The notes below the pieces were generated by a model. The model saw nothing but the letters and a program-made list of their open reading frames with translations. It was not told the origin of the DNA and searched no databases. This document shows, piece after piece, positions 3,943 to 61,991 of a stretch of DNA of 64,000 nt. Within the stretch, counting starts at the first letter, position 1. Each line of letters begins with the position of its first letter. The stretch comes from an uncultured Bacteroidota bacterium (GTDB lineage: Bacteria > Bacteroidota > Bacteroidia > Flavobacteriales_D > Sanyastnellaceae), in contig CAIZGX010000064.1 in assembly GCA_903932685.1 (NCBI GenBank), positions 62,001-126,000 on the forward strand. The letters are read 5' to 3'. Position numbers and translations under genes: made by a program.

Positions 3943-3943
3943 G

Positions 3944-3975
3944 AGAAGATAAGAAAGGGGAAGAGAGGGGAAGAA
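3944..3975 (+). repeat. polypurine tract module, shared with 61894-61932 and (reverse strand) 57212-57260
   Basis: AAGATAAGAAAGGGGAAGAGAGGGGAAGAAA versus AAGATAGGTTAAGAAAAGGGAAGAGAGGGGAAGA. Confidence 0.7.
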
Positions 3976-4050
3976 AGTTGCAACGCAACGAATGTCTACG
4001 ACGAATGTTTTCAACGAATGCCTTCGGCGGATATAGTCTGAACAGGTGTA
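3976..4050 (+). repeat. mini-hairpin array, CGAATG linker
   Basis: GTTGCAACGCAAC-GAATG-TCTACGA-CGAATG-TTTTCAA-CGAATG-CCTTCGG-CGGATA. Confidence 0.8.
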
Positions 4051-4075: not shown

Positions 4076-5293
4076 ATGTTAAAACGCAAAATGATCAATG
4101 ATCCGGTTTACGGATTTGTGACTATACGCCATGCGTTCGTTCTTGAATTAATTAATCACCGCTATTTCCAAAGACTCAGAAGAATTACCCAATTGGGTCT
4201 TTCGTCGTTGGTATATCCGGGTGCCGGACATAACCGCTTTCAGCACGCGATGGGCGCAATGCATTTGATGCAAAACGCCATTGATGAATTGCGATTGAAG
4301 GGACATGCTATTTCGCATGAAGAAGAAGTTGGATTGCTTTGCGCCATTCTCCTTCACGACATTGGACACGGTCCGTTCAGTCACGCGCTAGAAAGTTCCA
4401 TTGTGAACGAAGTTCACCACGAACATATTTCTTCTTTCGCCATGCAGCGCTTGAACCAAGAGTTCAAGGGTCAATTAGATCTTACGCTTGAAATCTTCAA
4501 TGGAACGTATCCACGAAAATTCATGCATCAATTGGTGAGCAGTCAGCTCGACATGGATCGTCTCGACTACTTGGCCCGAGATAGTTTTTTCAGCGGTGTT
4601 GTTGAAGGACAAGTGGGAAGCGAGCGATTGATTAAGATGCTCGATGTGGTGAATGATCAACTTGTGGTTGAAGAAAAAGGAATTTATTCCATTGAGAAAT
4701 TCATTGTCGCGCGAAGATTCATGTATTGGCAGGTTTACTTGCACAAGACCGTTTTAAGCGCAGAATACATGTTGGTGAATGTACTTCGTCGCGCAAAGCA
4801 GCTAGCGGACCAAGGCGAGCAGCTATGGGCCTCTCCGGCCTTGCAATACTTCTTGAACAATAAGATTTCTCTTTCTCATTTTGAAGGAAGCGACGAAGCG
4901 TTCGAGATGTTCATGAAGTTAGACGACATTGACATTCTTGGCGCCTTGAAAGTTTGGGCCTCACATTCCGATTTCGTGCTGAGTCAGTTAGCAACGCGCA
5001 TAGTCGAACGCAGACTTTTCAAGATTGAAATTTCCCGAACTGAAATCCCTGAAAGCAGCATTCAGCAAGCCATTCAGGATATTCAAAATCAGTATAGCAT
5101 CTCAACTGAAGAAGCTCGCTATTTCGTGTTGAACGGAAAAGTCGACAATCGCGCATACAACAGCATGAATGAAGGCATCTTGGTGAAGATGAAAAACGGT
5201 GACATCATAGACGCAGCGAAAGCCAGCGATCACGATAACCTTTCGGCATTGAGTGCTCCTGTTGAGAAGTACTTTTTGGCCAAGGCCAAATAA
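4076..5293 (+). CDS. HD-domain phosphohydrolase (dGTPase-like)
   Basis: MINDPVYGFV, HNRFQHAMGAMHLM, LLHDIGHGPFSHALE HD motif. Confidence 0.9.
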   Translation: MLKRKMINDPVYGFVTIRHAFVLELINHRYFQRLRRITQLGLSSLVYPGAGHNRFQHAMGAMHLMQNAIDELRLKGHAISHEEEVGLLCAILLHDIGHGPFSHALESSIVNEVHHEHISSFAMQRLNQEFKGQLDLTLEIFNGTYPRKFMHQLVSSQLDMDRLDYLARDSFFSGVVEGQVGSERLIKMLDVVNDQLVVEEKGIYSIEKFIVARRFMYWQVYLHKTVLSAEYMLVNVLRRAKQLADQGEQLWASPALQYFLNNKISLSHFEGSDEAFEMFMKLDDIDILGALKVWASHSDFVLSQLATRIVERRLFKIEISRTEIPESSIQQAIQDIQNQYSISTEEARYFVLNGKVDNRAYNSMNEGILVKMKNGDIIDAAKASDHDNLSALSAPVEKYFLAKAK

Positions 5294-5371
5294 TGCCACT
5301 TGGGCGAATGTGCAAGCACGAATGTTGCGAAGCAACGAATGTCTTCGACGAATGTTTTCCAAACTAATGTG
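5293..5371 (+). repeat. mini-hairpin array, CGAATG linker, starting at HD-gene stop codon
   Basis: TAATG-CCACTTGGG-CGAATG-TGCAAGCA-CGAATG-TTGCGAAGCAA-CGAATG-TCTTCGA-CGAATG. Confidence 0.85.
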
Positions 5372-5472
5372 CTAGCGCACGAGGGCCGATGGCGACAACT
5401 CGATCTTAACGGAAAATTCCTCGATGTGCTTTAAGAGATTCACGTTTTTAATGGTTCGGAAATTCAGAAAAT
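5372..5472 (-). pseudogene. 3' remnant of an MNT nucleotidyltransferase gene, homologous to the C-terminus of the 12030-12350 CDS
   Basis: Reverse strand encodes DFLNFRTIKNVNLLKHIEEFSVKIELSPSALVR*, cf. VDLVNFRTIKNENLLKHIEDFSVQIELSPSALVR*; no upstream remainder. Confidence 0.85.
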
Positions 5473-5514
5473 CTTCGATTTTATTCCTCCCGATAGCTAT
5501 CGGGATTCGTAATT
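5468..5514. repeat. palindromic element: AAAATC-TTC-GATTTT hairpin plus 18-bp palindrome TCCCGATAGCTATCGGGA (5488-5505)
   Basis: Second copy at 56571-56632 with covarying first hairpin. Confidence 0.85.
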
Positions 5515-5537
5515 CCTACAAAGTAATTGGAAATGCG

Positions 5538-5650
5538 TTGCTAAATCGTCGAAGACATTCGCCATCGGCATTCGTGCTTGCACATTCGTTGCTTGCAACA
5601 TTCGTCCGCAGGACATTCGTTGCTTCGCAACATTAGCCTCCGGCATTACT
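5538..5650 (-). repeat. mini-hairpin array (CATTCG on + strand), abutting stop of the 5646-8330 CDS
   Basis: GTCGAAGAC-ATTCG-CCATCGG-CATTCG-TGCTTGCA-CATTCG-TTGCTTGCAA-CATTCG-TCCGCAGGA-CATTCG-TTGCTTCGCAA-CATTAG-CCTCCGG-CATTA. Confidence 0.9.
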
Positions 5651-8330
5651 CTTTCACCAAACGCATTGTCTTCCCGGCCGCTCTTACCAAGTAAACCCCA
5701 GCGTTCCATTTAGCAACAGAGATTTCCATGCGGTCTGATTGGGCTTTGTCTTTGAATAATATTCTTCCAGTTAAGTCGTAAACTTCCACAGAGGTTCCTT
5801 TTTCCAAACCAACCAAATTCACGTTGTTTTTCGCTGGATTCGGATACAAGTTTATCTCTGTTTTAGTAGCCGGAGCCTCTTCCACCTGAACCCCACATGC
5901 CATGGTGTAGACAGGACTAGTCATTGCCGTTTGCATATTGTTGCCCATGTCGTGAACGTTGAATTGAACTTCTGTTCCGCAAGCATATGGACCTTTCAAT
6001 GTTTGTCCAGCTGCATTCATTACAGAAACTGGTTCGTTCAATGAAGAAACCACTCCGTAAGGACCACCTGTTCCCATTGACGAAAGATTCATTGAAACGA
6101 AGAACTGTTCATTCGCCGGGTCTTCCATTAATATCATACCCATGTTTGGAAGCTCAACATCATACACACATGAGCCATCGTCGAACTGTGCATCTCCGCC
6201 GTAGTTCAAGGCCATTGGATCTAAACATCCACCGCAGTAATACAAACAACTTCCAACATCACAAGTTGCTAAACTGTCGTAGTTACAAGCCATTGGATCT
6301 GTACATCCCACTATTTCATTCGCTCCTGACACGAATGCCTGTAAGTAACCGAAGTCGGCTAAATTACCATTTAGAACCACTTCACCTTGCGCATTGGTAA
6401 CTGTAACTGAAGAGTTATCGGGCATGAATGAATACAACACCAACTGATAACAATCTGCTGCATTCATGCAATAGCCTGTCGCGTATGGATATTCGTTAAA
6501 GGCACCTTCACCCGTATTCGGATTAAACGCGTAGAAAATAACTTGTCCGCCTGAAGTAACCGTGTTCCAGTTTTCAGCTGAACAACAAGTGCCGTTATCT
6601 ACGGTAGCATCTGCATTGTAATTCGGAGCGGTAGGATCGGTGCAACCTTGACAAGAATAATCGCATAAAGTGGCGTTTGTGCAAGTCGCATTCGGATTGT
6701 AATTACAAGCGAAGAGATCGGTGCAACCAACGACTTCATTCACTGAGAAGTATTCGTTTACATAGGGATTAACATTTCCAGTTGTTTGATAGAATACGCT
6801 TCCGTCTGGACCATAAATGGTTATTTGGAAAGGCTGAACCGTTAAGCTCCATGCGCTGAATGAAAAGCAGTCTTGCTCCATACAGAATCCCTGAAGCATA
6901 TTGTTGTATCCTCCTTGCTGAGTTAACCCGTCTGAAGAAGTAACATACCATTCCAACCAAGAAGAAGATTCAACGGTGTACCAATTGTTGAAGCAGCAAG
7001 TGCCATTGTCAACTGTTGCGTTTGAATCGTAGTTGTTTGCCGTTGGGTCTGTGCAGCCAAGGCATGAATAATCGCAGAATGCAAGTTCATTGCACGTTGC
7101 AAGTGGGTTGTAGTTGCATGCCGAAGGCTCTGTGCAACCGGGCACTACAACACCCCAAAGGAAGGTGTATGGAATTCCAGTTTCCATGGCATTTGTTGAA
7201 CCTTGTGAAACAATATAACCGGTAGAATCTGTAATTGTGATATACGTGGTCTCTCCATTTTGATTGAACGGATCGAAAGTAATCGGATAAGAATTCAAGG
7301 TGTAGCATCCGCTGCTTATGCACAGTGTGCTATCGTTCGGTGTTGTACCGTATTGGTAATATCCCAATGAACTCTGAATAGTCCATGTTGAAGGCACCGA
7401 TGTAGTAATGGTCGCCATGTCAGCGTAGCAGCACTTTGCGTTATCGGAAGTTGCATTGGGATCGTAGTTCGTTGCAAGCGGGTCTGTGCAGCCGCTGCAA
7501 GAAGCGTAATCACATGATCCGTCGTTACAAGTAGCTTCAGCATTGTAGTTACATGCATTTGGATCTACACACCCGTATACTGCGTTCAACGAAACCGTGG
7601 TATAGAGGTAGTTTGAATCTACTGCTCCAGTAATCCAAACAGAACCATCTTCAAGGGTTACAGTGAAATTCTGGTTTACAGAAGCTTCGTCCAAAGAATA
7701 AACTTGCAGCGCATAACAGCTGTTTCTCACGCAGAACTGGTTGTTCACGAGATTATCTCCGCCTGTCATATAATATTGCTCACTGTACAACCAAATTCCC
7801 GCTTGTCCTTGCTCTACGCTGAAGGTCGCCCAATGGTCTGTGCAACATGTATTGTTATCTACAGTTGCATTTGGATTGAAGTTGAATGCGTCTGGGTTGG
7901 TGCAACCTAGGCAAGAGTAGTCGCAAGAATTATAATCGATACAATTGGCATTCGCATTGAAATTGCACGCGTTTGGATCTGTACAACCGTCTGTCACGTT
8001 GTTTGAGATATATCCAATGAAATAGTATTGACTGCCTAAATTTTCAATGTTTAGTTGATTTCCCTGATTATCTTGAATGAAAAATTCAACGGGTTGAGGA
8101 ATACCCGCACCCTCTGATGCAATAACAATCTTAAAACATCCGTCTGGAATACAAAAGGCATTCCAACCTGGTCCAGCCCCTCCTGCTACTTCATAATTGA
8201 GGTTATTTTGCACCGAAAAATAACCTGGTTGCAAAAGCCCAATGGTATAGCAATTCTGATTTTGTGCAGAAACAGAAAAGGTCAAAGCACTAAGAAGAAG
8301 GAAGTATATTAGTTTTTTCATTGTTTGCAA
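5646..8330 (-). CDS. secreted repeat protein with T9SS C-terminal sorting domain
   Basis: Signal peptide; repeated GCTDPxACNYNxxATC...CDYSCxGCTDPxAxNYxxxATxDNGTCC modules; C-terminus INLYPNPAKNNVNLVGLEKGTSVEVYDLTGRILFK...LVRAAGKTMRLVKE. Confidence 0.88.
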   Translation of the reverse strand: MQTMKKLIYFLLLSALTFSVSAQNQNCYTIGLLQPGYFSVQNNLNYEVAGGAGPGWNAFCIPDGCFKIVIASEGAGIPQPVEFFIQDNQGNQLNIENLGSQYYFIGYISNNVTDGCTDPNACNFNANANCIDYNSCDYSCLGCTNPDAFNFNPNATVDNNTCCTDHWATFSVEQGQAGIWLYSEQYYMTGGDNLVNNQFCVRNSCYALQVYSLDEASVNQNFTVTLEDGSVWITGAVDSNYLYTTVSLNAVYGCVDPNACNYNAEATCNDGSCDYASCSGCTDPLATNYDPNATSDNAKCCYADMATITTSVPSTWTIQSSLGYYQYGTTPNDSTLCISSGCYTLNSYPITFDPFNQNGETTYITITDSTGYIVSQGSTNAMETGIPYTFLWGVVVPGCTEPSACNYNPLATCNELAFCDYSCLGCTDPTANNYDSNATVDNGTCCFNNWYTVESSSWLEWYVTSSDGLTQQGGYNNMLQGFCMEQDCFSFSAWSLTVQPFQITIYGPDGSVFYQTTGNVNPYVNEYFSVNEVVGCTDLFACNYNPNATCTNATLCDYSCQGCTDPTAPNYNADATVDNGTCCSAENWNTVTSGGQVIFYAFNPNTGEGAFNEYPYATGYCMNAADCYQLVLYSFMPDNSSVTVTNAQGEVVLNGNLADFGYLQAFVSGANEIVGCTDPMACNYDSLATCDVGSCLYYCGGCLDPMALNYGGDAQFDDGSCVYDVELPNMGMILMEDPANEQFFVSMNLSSMGTGGPYGVVSSLNEPVSVMNAAGQTLKGPYACGTEVQFNVHDMGNNMQTAMTSPVYTMACGVQVEEAPATKTEINLYPNPAKNNVNLVGLEKGTSVEVYDLTGRILFKDKAQSDRMEISVAKWNAGVYLVRAAGKTMRLVKE

Positions 8331-8428: not shown

Positions 8429-8493
8429 ACTCTTAATCATTGTTGGCATGAGCTCACACTCATGCCTGTGCGTTTGTGTCGCCCCGAGGGGCT
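8429..8493. repeat. REP-like palindromic element at 3' end of RAYT gene
   Basis: CTCTTAATCA...GGCATGAG-ctcaca-CTCATGCC (8-bp perfect stem) then GTCGCCCC-GA-GGGGCT. Confidence 0.75.
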
Positions 8494-8918
8494 AATGAAT
8501 GATCATTTAGAAGTTTGTTTTCCTCTTCGAGATAAGAGTAGTAGGTGTGATGATTCTTTTGGTTTTTAATGTATTGAATGACACGTTTTCGGTCTTTGTA
8601 GTAAACGGAAAACACGGCATATCCGGGTTGCCAGGTGAAATCGGCTAGGGATTCGTGTTGCGATTTCATCCATCGCGAAGAGTTTGATTTGGCGGCTTCA
8701 GCGAGTTTCGCGGTTGTTAATGTGCGCGGTAATTCGCAAAGAATGTGCACGTGGTCGTAGTATCCGCCAATGGCGTAGACTTCCGATCCCTTGTTGTTAA
8801 AAACGCCAATGAGGTAGGCGTGCAAACCTTGTTCAACCTGAAGAAAAATTTTCGGTTCGCGGTATTTGGTTACGAATACGAAATGTAGAACGAGACGGCT
8901 AAGAGAAGATGGGTTCAT
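8460..8918 (-). CDS. REP-associated tyrosine transposase / IS200-like Y1 transposase (RAYT)
   Basis: LVLHFVFVTKYREPKIF, GGYYDHVHILCELPRTLT, WQPGYAVFSVYYKDRKRVIQYIKNQKNHH, YLEEENKLL; flanked by palindromic repeats. Confidence 0.88.
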   Translation of the reverse strand: MNPSSLSRLVLHFVFVTKYREPKIFLQVEQGLHAYLIGVFNNKGSEVYAIGGYYDHVHILCELPRTLTTAKLAEAAKSNSSRWMKSQHESLADFTWQPGYAVFSVYYKDRKRVIQYIKNQKNHHTYYSYLEEENKLLNDHSLAPRGDTNAQA

Positions 8919-11957: not shown

Positions 11958-12052
11958 GGGGGGGGTGGCTTCGCGAGGGCAACTAACGTTGCGAGGGTGA
12001 ATACTTCACGAGGGTCTGCGACGAGGGTGCTATCGCACGAGGGCCGATGGCG
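11958..12052. repeat. mini-hairpin array, CGAGGG linker, overlapping last codons of MNT gene
   Basis: CGAGGG-CAACTAACGTTG-CGAGGG-TGAATACTTCA-CGAGGG-TCTGCGA-CGAGGG-TGCTATCGCA-CGAGGG-CCGATGG. Confidence 0.85.
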
Positions 12053-12910: not shown

Positions 12911-13065
12911 CAAGGGCGAATGCTTCGCGAAGGCAACATCGTTGCGAAGGTGCAAGCACGAGGGTCTTCGACGAGGGCAACTGGCGTTGCTTATCAATCA
13001 ACGTTCGCAGAACCCTCGCAAAGAATTTGCCTTCGTCTGAAAGACCCTCGCAACAGCAGTTGCTC
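12911..13065. repeat. mini-hairpin array with internal orientation switch (CGAGGG to CCCTCG)
   Basis: CAACATCGTTG-CGAAGG-TGCAAGCA-CGAGGG-TCTTCGA-CGAGGG-CAACTGGCGTTG ... CCCTCG-CAAAGAATTTG-CCTTCG-TCTGAAAGA-CCCTCG-CAACAGCAGTTG. Confidence 0.85.
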
Positions 13066-36484: not shown

Positions 36485-36553
36485 TCCTTCGGATCAATCG
36501 AAACAAGTTTCGATCAATCTCTTCGAGATCAATCCGACTTTGTCGGATCAAAG
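36485..36553. repeat. mini-hairpin array with TCAA linker between convergent genes
   Basis: TCCTTCGGA-TCAA-TCGAAACAAGTTTCGA-TCAA-TCTCTTCGAGA-TCAA-TCCGACTTTGTCGGA-TCAAAG. Confidence 0.9.
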
Positions 36554-38284
36554 TTTCACTATTTGTTTTCTAAGAGTGCGATCTCCCGTTTGTAATTCAA
36601 GAAGATAATTTCCTGAAGACAAATTGGAAAGATCAAGCACAGCGTTTCCATTCGCTACGCGCTCTGAAAGAACCAGTCTTCCGGAAAGATCGCGAATGGA
36701 AAGGTTTGCACTTTCATTCGTGTTTTTCCATTGAACGTTCAACACATCGGTAACCGGATTCGGATAAATGTTCAGTTGGTCTTCCAATGCCATTTCTTCC
36801 ACCCCAACATTCACGGTTATAATATCCGATGTTAGGACGCAACCGTAACTATTAGTAACCTGCACGGCATAAACTCCGTTTGGTGGGCTAATCAAATAAT
36901 AGGTAATTGCACCTTGTAAAAGCATTCCGTTATAGAACCACTGATAGGTGTCGTAACTATCCGCAACTGACAATTGATCGGCAGCAGCATTCCAAAACAC
37001 CTCTATGGGTGCGCAGTACAAGTATGGTTCACTTGTAGAAGAGCATCCGAATTCGTTTTGCAAATACACCGAATAATAACCGGATTCAGTCATGGTTAAA
37101 CTTGAACCCGATTCCCCTGCTATTAATATGCCGTTGTAATACCAGAAATAGGTCGGCACGGTGTCGTTCGCGCAAGAGATGACATCGCCGCTCACACTAA
37201 CCGTTGCATCGGGTTGAGGGAAGACACTGACTGCAGTAGATGCTGAAATATTCGTCACTTCGTTCAATGAGATGTTAATGGTTCCTGAAGTTCCGTTACC
37301 AGAACTGAACGACTGAGAACCCACACCAATGTTGAAAGAAGATGTTCCCAAATTATCGTCCTGCGAGATATCATCCGAATCCCAAAAAGTAATCGTGTAA
37401 GGAGGATTCGAAAGCGTAAAATTCACATTCGAGTATGAAGCACTTGTTTGATTATTTACTGTCCCGCTCGTGTAAACAGCACTTCCAGCAGCATTGTTAA
37501 TGGTGAAATAAGGATCCGCTGTATTGAATAAATCATCAACATCGCCATTCCAGTTTCCATTCACTCCGGCAAGGTTTACAGAGGTAATTACATAATTTGA
37601 AATAACGGTTTGAAGGGAAGCCGTATAAGTTCCCGGCGCACCATAATTAACTGGTGCAGGATCTGCAACATTTCCCGTTTGTCCGTTACCAAAATCCCAT
37701 ATGTAAGTGGTCATTTGCGAAGCATCGCCACCAATGGTTGCAACATAATCTACATCAATGGCACCGCATCCGGCAGATTGGTCGAATGTAAAAGTTGAAG
37801 TTCCTCCAGGACCTTGTTCAACAATTAACGTAATTATAAAACTATCATTTTGAGTGACCTCAAATCCAAAAGCTTCGGCGAGTGCTGTAATACTAATCAC
37901 GATGTCGTATGTTCCGGGCAATACTGGGGTTCCGCATATGGTTGCACAACCGGAATTTTCTCCTTGAGGCGGATAAAAAATTCCATCGGCATCGTTCAAT
38001 GTAAATTCCAATCCAAAAGGTAATCCTGAAACATCGGTAATCGTCAACTGAAGCAACGTTGCATTCACACCTGAGCCAGGATCTGTAACATCCGTTGGAA
38101 TAAAGAACGTCATGACCTGCTCGTAATAAACACCTGTGGTGGCGTTCGGCGGAATAGCCGGACAAATCATGGGTGTGCCCGTGGTGTTTGTGCATGTGGG
38201 GTCTGGAGCGCACGTCGGACATTGTGCGTGTGTGGAAATAATTCCAACAAAGAACAAAGCTAAAACGAAGTAGATATTTTTCAT
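36548..38284 (-). CDS. secreted PKD/Ig-like protein with T9SS sorting domain
   Basis: Signal peptide; TYIWDFGNGQTGNVADPAPVNYGAPGTY; LNIYPNPVTDVLNVQWKNT...LRKQIVKL. Confidence 0.88.
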   Translation of the reverse strand: MKNIYFVLALFFVGIISTHAQCPTCAPDPTCTNTTGTPMICPAIPPNATTGVYYEQVMTFFIPTDVTDPGSGVNATLLQLTITDVSGLPFGLEFTLNDADGIFYPPQGENSGCATICGTPVLPGTYDIVISITALAEAFGFEVTQNDSFIITLIVEQGPGGTSTFTFDQSAGCGAIDVDYVATIGGDASQMTTYIWDFGNGQTGNVADPAPVNYGAPGTYTASLQTVISNYVITSVNLAGVNGNWNGDVDDLFNTADPYFTINNAAGSAVYTSGTVNNQTSASYSNVNFTLSNPPYTITFWDSDDISQDDNLGTSSFNIGVGSQSFSSGNGTSGTINISLNEVTNISASTAVSVFPQPDATVSVSGDVISCANDTVPTYFWYYNGILIAGESGSSLTMTESGYYSVYLQNEFGCSSTSEPYLYCAPIEVFWNAAADQLSVADSYDTYQWFYNGMLLQGAITYYLISPPNGVYAVQVTNSYGCVLTSDIITVNVGVEEMALEDQLNIYPNPVTDVLNVQWKNTNESANLSIRDLSGRLVLSERVANGNAVLDLSNLSSGNYLLELQTGDRTLRKQIVKL

Positions 38285-55761: not shown

Positions 55762-55872
55762 TCGTCGAAGACCCTCGTTGCTTGCAACCTTCGTCCGTAG
55801 GACCTTCGCAAAGCTATTTGCCCTCGTCCGAAGGACCCTAGTGAAGAATTCACCCTCGCAAAGCTATTTGCC
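55762..55872 (-). repeat. mini-hairpin array, CCCTCG/CCTTCG (+ strand) linker
   Basis: GTCGAAGAC-CCTCG-TTGCTTGCAA-CCTTCG-TCCGTAGGA-CCTTCG-CAAAGCTATTTG-CCCTCG-TCCGAAGGA-CCCTAG-TGAAGAATTCA-CCCTCG-CAAAGCTATTTG-CC. Confidence 0.92.
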
Positions 55873-56637: not shown

Positions 56638-56700
56638 CAGTCGAAGACATTCGCACGAAGTGCATTCGTTCAGAGAACATTCGTCGAAGACATTCTAACT
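56638..56700 (-). repeat. mini-hairpin array at stop of DUF1456 gene
   Basis: GTCGAAGAC-ATTCG-CACGAAGTG-CATTCG-TTCAGAGAA-CATTCG-TCGAAGA-CATTCTAA. Confidence 0.8.
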
Positions 56701-57177
56701 CTTCTTCCCGCGCTGCTCCTCCCTCCCCTCACGTTTCTCCAACCCTTGAAAGAAATTCCGAATCACCTGGTTGTTGCATTCAACATACTGTCTTTGCGTG
56801 GGGCTGCGGAAGAAGGCGCTGAGTTCATGCTTGCTCATTTTCATGTCTGCAAGCGCAAGGATTTGAATAATGTCTTCGTCAATTAAATTCAGCGCGATGC
56901 GCATCTTTCGGAAGATGAGGTTATTCGTCAAGCGTTTCTCTGGAACCGGCAAAGGTCCGTCTTTTCGTCCGCGTTTATGAATGATGAATCCGTTTAGAAA
57001 AATGGAGAGCATTTCATCGTTAATATCCAGATACTCTTCGTGATCTTCCTTCTTCAACCAATCACTTACATCAGAACGCGTAACCATAACATCGGTCAAT
57101 CCGAAAATGTCTATCATCTGCTGATCAGAGAAGTCATAAATAAATCGAATACGACGGAAGATGCTGTTGTTGGTCAT
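56695..57177 (-). CDS. DUF1456-family (YehS-like) protein
   Basis: NNSIFRRIRFIYDFSDQQMIDIFGL ... NNLIFRKMRIALNLIDEDIIQILAL duplicated motif. Confidence 0.9.
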   Translation of the reverse strand: MTNNSIFRRIRFIYDFSDQQMIDIFGLTDVMVTRSDVSDWLKKEDHEEYLDINDEMLSIFLNGFIIHKRGRKDGPLPVPEKRLTNNLIFRKMRIALNLIDEDIIQILALADMKMSKHELSAFFRSPTQRQYVECNNQVIRNFFQGLEKREGREEQRGKKS

Positions 57178-61824: not shown

Positions 61825-61893
61825 GCCCTGCGGGCGAATGTTGCGAAGCAACGAATGTGCAAGCACGAATGCCTTCGGCGAATGTCTTTTTAA
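61825..61893 (+). repeat. mini-hairpin array, CGAATG linker, directly after glyS stop
   Basis: GCCCTGCGGGC-GAATG-TTGCGAAGCAA-CGAATG-TGCAAGCA-CGAATG-CCTTCGG-CGAATG. Confidence 0.88.
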
Positions 61894-61932
61894 AAGGTAA
61901 GATAGGTTAAGAAAAGGGAAGAGAGGGGAAGA
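61894..61932 (+). repeat. polypurine tract module
   Basis: AAGGTAAGATAGGTTAAGAAAAGGGAAGAGAGGGGAAGA. Confidence 0.75.
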
Positions 61933-61935
61933 TAT

Positions 61936-61991
61936 AACAACGTAGTTCCAACAACGAAGTTCTAACAACGAAGTTACAACAACGTAGTTCC
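61936..61991 (-). repeat. four 14-bp tandem units AACAACGWAGTTNN, overlapping ddl 3' end
   Basis: AACAACGTAGTTCC AACAACGAAGTTCT AACAACGAAGTTAC AACAACGTAGTTCC; reverse complement of the 55703-55758 repeat. Confidence 0.9.

Follow-up and report, generated by a model that had tools for sequence, protein, structure and literature searches.

Arrays of small hairpins with unlike neighbours at gene 3′ ends in a genus of Flavobacteriales

The 64-kb window, the whole stretch of DNA that was analysed, includes two convergent genes and the short region between their stop codons (5291–5648). The HD-domain protein gene (4076–5293, + strand) is 95–99% identical in sister species, and the opposing gene (5646–8330, − strand) encodes a protein with a T9SS type A sorting domain. 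Two GAAT-family arrays of seven hairpins each lie between them. The first (5291–5393, +) is 3′ of the HD-domain gene and is fused to its stop codon TAA (5291–5293); the second (5548–5648, −) is 3′ of the T9SS-sorted gene and is fused to the stop of that gene (reverse TTA, 5646–5648). In both genes the stop codon forms the opening TAA of the first spacer, TAAT. The + strand array reads TAAT GCCACTTGGGC GAAT GTGCAAGCAC GAAT GTTGCGAAGCAAC GAAT GTCTTCGAC GAAT GTTTTCCAAAC TAAT GTGCTAGCGCAC GAGG GCCGATGGC, and the − strand array reads TAAT GCCGGAGGC TAAT GTTGCGAAGCAAC GAAT GTCCTGCGGAC GAAT GTTGCAAGCAAC GAAT GTGCAAGCAC GAAT GCCGATGGC GAAT GTCTTCGAC. A first-pass annotation had described two facing arrays; they do face one another, and are better described as each following the 3′ end of its own gene in sense. 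A perfect palindrome, CCCGATAGCTATCGGG, is found between the two arrays (5489–5504) and has 7 copies in 689 kb of genome G000 and 9 in 96 kb of G010.

Each unit consists of the 4-nt spacer GAAT and a hairpin word of about 8–15 nt that is closed by a G–C pair, with 3–6 pairs (only 3–4 in many stems) and mostly a 3-nt loop. The linker had been read as CGAATG, but the final G pairs with the C that opens the next CGAATG. Because these outer bases pair, the true spacer is the 4-nt GAAT, one of several spacer families. The central claim of the annotation, variable self-complementary words on a near-constant linker, was borne out: 306 of the 327 array-internal words (those with a perfect unit on both sides) are perfectly self-complementary, and a detector-free test found self-pairing arms in 92% of words between CGAATG-like spacers. 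A genome-wide pattern search of the kind that it had proposed gave 126 matches to CGAATG-N7-12-CGAATG in the own genome (2.37 Mb), against 3 for the reversed control. A detector of perfect hairpins with a shared spacer located 75 arrays, comprising 421 hairpins, in 689 kb, whereas five dinucleotide-shuffled versions yielded none; since this sample favours array-bearing contigs, the array density is not a genome average. Arm complementarity was also compared with shuffled controls, using 21 words not picked for pairing. In this set 96.4% of cells were paired, there were 16 double-sided changes versus 4.3 in shuffles, and the covariation score was above every slid register and was reached by none of 500 shuffles. 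The arrays are real, and chance is excluded.

At least six spacer families were distinguished (GAAT/TAAT, GAGG, ATGA, TCAA, AGG/AGA and CCAAC), most of them common to genomes G000, G006, G008, G010 and G011. In the GAAT family 33 stems were counted across five genomes, all behind the same spacer. The proposal of a small vocabulary is apt for the stems, which are few, with drifting loops, and generous for whole words, of which 93 are distinct among 210 units in G000. Words are reused in different orders, as had been noted, with the two-word orders shared between loci barely above shuffle (7 versus 2.4 in G000). An AGG-spaced array with a 12-nt unit (L039:11641-12861) runs in frame inside an open reading frame and encodes a GAMQGHSE peptide repeat. 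In another array type (L054 9100-9326 and others), hairpins of class AAAACCTTCGGTTTT alternate with hairpins of class TACTGCGTA, and the spacers are ATTGG/ATTCC.

Altogether the window carries ten arrays of three spacer families. Besides the focal pair, GAAT-family arrays of four hairpins each are found at 3977–4028 (+), 34 nt after an RNase E/G-family gene; at 61825–61879 (+), beginning with the base that immediately follows the stop of a class II tRNA-synthetase-like gene; and at 56640–56691 (−), just downstream of ORF 56695–57177 (−). The G011 orthologue of the array at 3977–4028 has additional units. The GAGG-spacer array at 11979–12051 (+, five hairpins) has the same G–C closing pair as the GAAT family. 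A GAGG/GAAG-spacer array at 12916–12990 (+, five hairpins) is faced by a GAGG-spacer array at 13004–13062 (−, four hairpins), and a further GAGG/GAAG-spacer array of seven hairpins lies at 55764–55871 (−). The one TCAA-spacer array (36485–36560, +, five hairpins) has a T–A closing pair, starts 6 nt after a called gene end, and is represented by orthologues in both G008 and G006. Intergenic positions 3943–3976 and 61890–61940 carry a purine-rich element, AAGARAGGGGAAGA, and its neighbours, with 32 copies in 689 kb of G000; the core of this element type was seen upstream of 8 of 73 GAAT arrays.

Arrays are concentrated at gene ends: 43 of 134 are no more than 10 nt from a gene stop, compared with 2.5% under random placement, where genes were called as simple open frames with a codon score. 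Among GAAT arrays within 30 nt, 32 are sense and 3 antisense (p = 4e-7), a sense count that may be inflated for arrays cutting into a gene, as TAAT spacers give sense stop codons. The TCAA arrays divide into 10 sense and 2 antisense, and among GAGG and ATGA arrays there is no clear preference for sense. Exact junctions of stop and array are frequent (TAA|TG, TGA|TG, TAA|GCC), and the stop of some genes is inside the first hairpin, for example GTTGGC-TAA-GCCAAC. Few arrays lie between divergent genes and many between tandem genes; between convergent genes they are enriched, and both array orientations can occur at one locus. The gene-sense orientation speaks for transcription of the arrays.

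Among the genera sampled, the arrays are confined to one genus (g1) of Flavobacteriales MAGs. When 399 genomes of the order were searched for the specific GAAT pattern, it was frequent only in this genus, where 8 of the 9 members had it (one with a single match); single matches were also present in two other genomes. About 670 kb of related Bacteroidota around an orthologous gene held no hairpin-word array outside the genus, nor did 315 kb from the same family, where the scoring loci were fixed-unit repeats. The conservation in related Bacteroidota that was to be checked extends across most of the genus and, in the sequence sampled, stops there. Matches in genus g11 (G031, G032, G037) were ordinary 7-bp tandem repeats of the CGARTGG type mimicking the search pattern. 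Such repeats (CGARTGG, ACTAGTC) likewise match CGAATG-N-CGAATG; unlike the arrays, they have a fixed unit decaying by substitution and lack hairpin words. Six matches in viral contigs look like chance. One member of the genus, G005 (95% complete), lacks the GAAT pattern genome-wide, and 196 kb of its sequence contain no array from any family; whatever the arrays do is therefore dispensable.

Orthologous arrays were paired by their flanks on both sides. In the orthologues of the array at 5291–5393 in G006, G008 and G011 the stems are the same and the loops differ, and G008 has lost the GTTGC unit entirely. Across 214 aligned units the per-base difference was 17.5% in loops, 12.1% in flanks, 7.6% in spacers and 1.6% in stems, and in 68 aligned units change was confined to the loop; units below 60% identity were omitted from this base-level count, so stem replacement is under-counted there. 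At the level of units, in 29 orthologous arrays, 58 were identical, 45 kept the stem and had another loop, 13 differed in the stem, and 75 had been gained or lost whole. Stem changes comprised 4 compensated pairs among 856 and 28 single changes, and the rarity of compensation speaks against the idea that stems stay constant through arm-to-arm copying. Recent gain or loss is shown by sites that are empty or nearly so in sister species, as for the G010 array L236:9840-9930 (compared with G000 and G011) and the G000 array L059:12225-12475 (compared with G005). At L214:14834-15119 in G011 a three-hairpin block of the TCAA family occurs in many successive head-to-tail copies whose loops drift, and looks like a recent block expansion.

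Adjacent units seldom share a stem. Compared with units shuffled inside arrays, a shared stem was seen in 3 of 281 adjacent pairs in the GAAT family (22 expected), 0 of 90 in the TCAA family (9.4 expected) and 2 of 68 in the ATGA family (9.8 expected). Identical stems recur two, three or four units apart. Without the detector, the arms of adjacent words of the same length cross-pair 4 times versus 19 expected (P<0.001). This is the pattern expected from selection for independent local folding; the alternative is that identical neighbours are unstable. That neighbouring units are the least alike rules out decay of one ordinary tandem repeat, in agreement with the initial statement that this is not a fixed-unit tandem repeat. 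The neighbour rule was not found in the papers searched.

The arrays were compared with known systems. REP elements are palindromes present outside genes in high copy, often near stop codons, in which a short-loop hairpin adjoins a tetranucleotide; some GTAG REP families have loops of 2–3 nt and several stem variants, and G–T pairs are often observed in GTAG repeats (PMC3733652, PMC8266576, PMC12306157). In group 3 REP elements the tetranucleotide is followed immediately, on its 3′ side, by a short perfect hairpin whose loop is 3 nt long (PMC8266576). Like REP and BIME, the arrays are extragenic, palindromic, present in high copy and close to stop codons. They resemble REP in layout and place, and differ from it in tag, shared palindrome and cognate transposase: the tags are GAAT/TAAT, GAGG, ATGA, TCAA, AGG/AGA and CCAAC rather than GTAG or CGTC; there is no single palindrome consensus per family, about 30 stems being found behind one tag; and no cognate RAYT (TnpA_REP) with the same hairpin beside it was found for the arrays. 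They are also long head-to-tail strings with only the tag between hairpins and with unlike neighbours, and G–T pairs are not favoured in their stems, in contrast to GTAG repeats.

Inverted repeats in E. coli are enriched right after stop codons (PMC6060812). The intrinsic terminators of E. coli are single longer repeats with terminator features, whereas the arrays consist of many successive stems of 3–6 bp; the GC-rich hairpin with a T-run that marks a Rho-independent terminator was not found in them. CRISPR arrays share the alternation of a constant with a variable element. As the first-pass annotation had stated, the arrays are nevertheless not CRISPR: their constant part is 4 nt long, their variable words, of about 8–15 nt, are self-complementary and are reused within the genome, and they occur at dozens of loci in both orientations. 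It had matched them to no repeat class that it could name. None of the repeat classes tested fits the pattern, the only Rfam matches above gathering score in the window were two tRNAs, and literature searches (open-licence papers) found no description of such arrays.

Whether the hairpins fold as DNA or as RNA bears on their nature. Among about 750 units, those with a single mismatch had G–T in 16 cases and A–C in 14, which speaks against a purely RNA-level constraint, with the caveat that stems so short may not bear a wobble pair. An early excess of A–C over G–T disappeared with more units. Loops of 3 nt are GNA or TNC in 63% (GAAT), 80% (TCAA) and 68% (ATGA) of cases. Loops of these types correspond to the compact mini-hairpin turn of DNA, on one strand, a turn known to be stable. 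With Vienna DNA parameters the observed loops did not differ in energy from random ones, so computed stability does not support the GNA-turn idea, and the loop class was not conserved between orthologues.

Candidate agents were sought in the same genomes. An IS200-family Y1 transposase (Y1_Tnp, 152 aa) is encoded at 8460–8918 (−); in G008 and G011, relatives lie close to the same conserved gene. Y1_Tnp is present in the array-bearing genomes G000, G006, G008 and G011 and absent from the array-free G005; no match was detected in G009, G012 or the array-rich G010 (96% complete), where, the genomes being drafts, the gene was possibly missed. The hairpins that flank the Y1 genes (type GCATGGGTGTTAGCCCATGC) differ from those of the arrays, and the locus resembles a RAYT locus that carries a repeat of its own. 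A RAYT/IS200 enzyme is a weak candidate as spreader of the arrays in view of these flanks and of the arrays in G010. A repeat borne by a retroelement (retron, DGR or group II intron) was rejected, as none of the nine genomes of the genus has a reverse transcriptase (RVT_1) match. SbcD was not detected in the genus, and loss of SbcCD as a permissive cause explains nothing by itself, since SbcD was equally undetected in the array-free G005 and in most relatives searched.

The reading we prefer, tentatively and at a little under an even chance, is that the arrays are REP-like extragenic elements of a new kind, located at gene 3′ ends and selected for independent hairpin folding. Could they instead be mobile at the level of DNA? 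An HUH/Y1-type single-strand enzyme might read the tetranucleotide and recognise the shape of the hairpin rather than its sequence, so that units move, or are copied, in the form of ssDNA and collect after stop codons, where insertion is least harmful. The unit has the layout of group 3 REP, a tetranucleotide with a 3-nt-loop hairpin (PMC8266576), and the stems without G–T preference, the prevalence (63–80%) of loops of the DNA mini-hairpin class and the distribution of Y1_Tnp across four array-bearing genomes and not G005 are all in its favour. We nonetheless find it rather doubtful: three genomes including G010 lack a Y1_Tnp match, the Y1 genes have different hairpins of their own, conserved stems at orthologous copies are unexpected for decaying mobile elements, and an orientation that tracks the gene, with both orientations at one locus, is unlike lagging-strand-biased ssDNA transposition.

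A purely mutational origin, in which replication slippage and fold-back template switching make and repair perfect mini-hairpins of no function, would account for the perfect arms, the short loops enriched in turn-favouring sequences, the block expansions (such as the three-unit repeat of L214 in G011) and a period-3 peak in TCAA arrays. It is an unlikely explanation, because copying of arms predicts about as many compensated changes as reversions and only 4 compensated pairs were seen, with 28 single changes, slippage predicts the identical neighbours that are depleted, and the fixed spacer and sense orientation are left unexplained. The enrichment between convergent genes, in sense and adjoining the stop codon, could also point to arrays of transcription terminators or pause sites. 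That is most improbable, given the many arrays between tandem genes and a terminator scan of the focal region that gave no hit in sense. T5 runs do not cluster downstream of arrays, and since no T-run follows or interrupts them, intrinsic termination is disfavoured. A bolder claim, that this is a categorically new element, we consider possible though somewhat unlikely. The spacer would then be a fixed recognition tag, the words free in sequence, constrained in shape and unlike their neighbours, and a dedicated factor, which most of the genus would have and G005 would lack, would install the units at stop codons in sense.

These genus-specific extragenic arrays are built from units of a spacer tetranucleotide and a perfect 9–15 nt hairpin, gained and lost as wholes and accumulating immediately after stop codons. 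Under the preferred reading, of REP-like elements selected for independent folding, selection would keep each hairpin self-folding, such that stems stay and loops drift, and neighbours would have to differ to keep arms from pairing across units. Points against this reading are the lack of G–T preference, the GAGG and ATGA arrays without clear orientation, the many stems of only 3–4 pairs and the array-free G005. Action at the 3′ end is probably the best-supported role: small hairpins that fold independently, in a row where transcription of the upstream gene ends, would most likely serve as a mechanical brake or insulator that slows run-on of the ribosome or RNA polymerase, or protects the 3′ end. 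The first-pass annotation had offered 3′-UTR processing, mRNA stability or a docking array as hypotheses for the function. The analogy is with REP elements near stop codons, which act in this way in E. coli, where those less than 16 nt from the stop codon lower translation (PMC12306157).

A repeat whose shape is conserved, whose sequence is exchangeable and whose adjacent copies are unlike is the opposite of what tandem duplication yields. With arrays of several spacer families at many loci in each genome, flank identities of about 80–95% between sister species and one array-free member, the genus offers a natural experiment on the origin of small gene-end hairpins, on their selection, and on whether folding of DNA or of RNA is the target.
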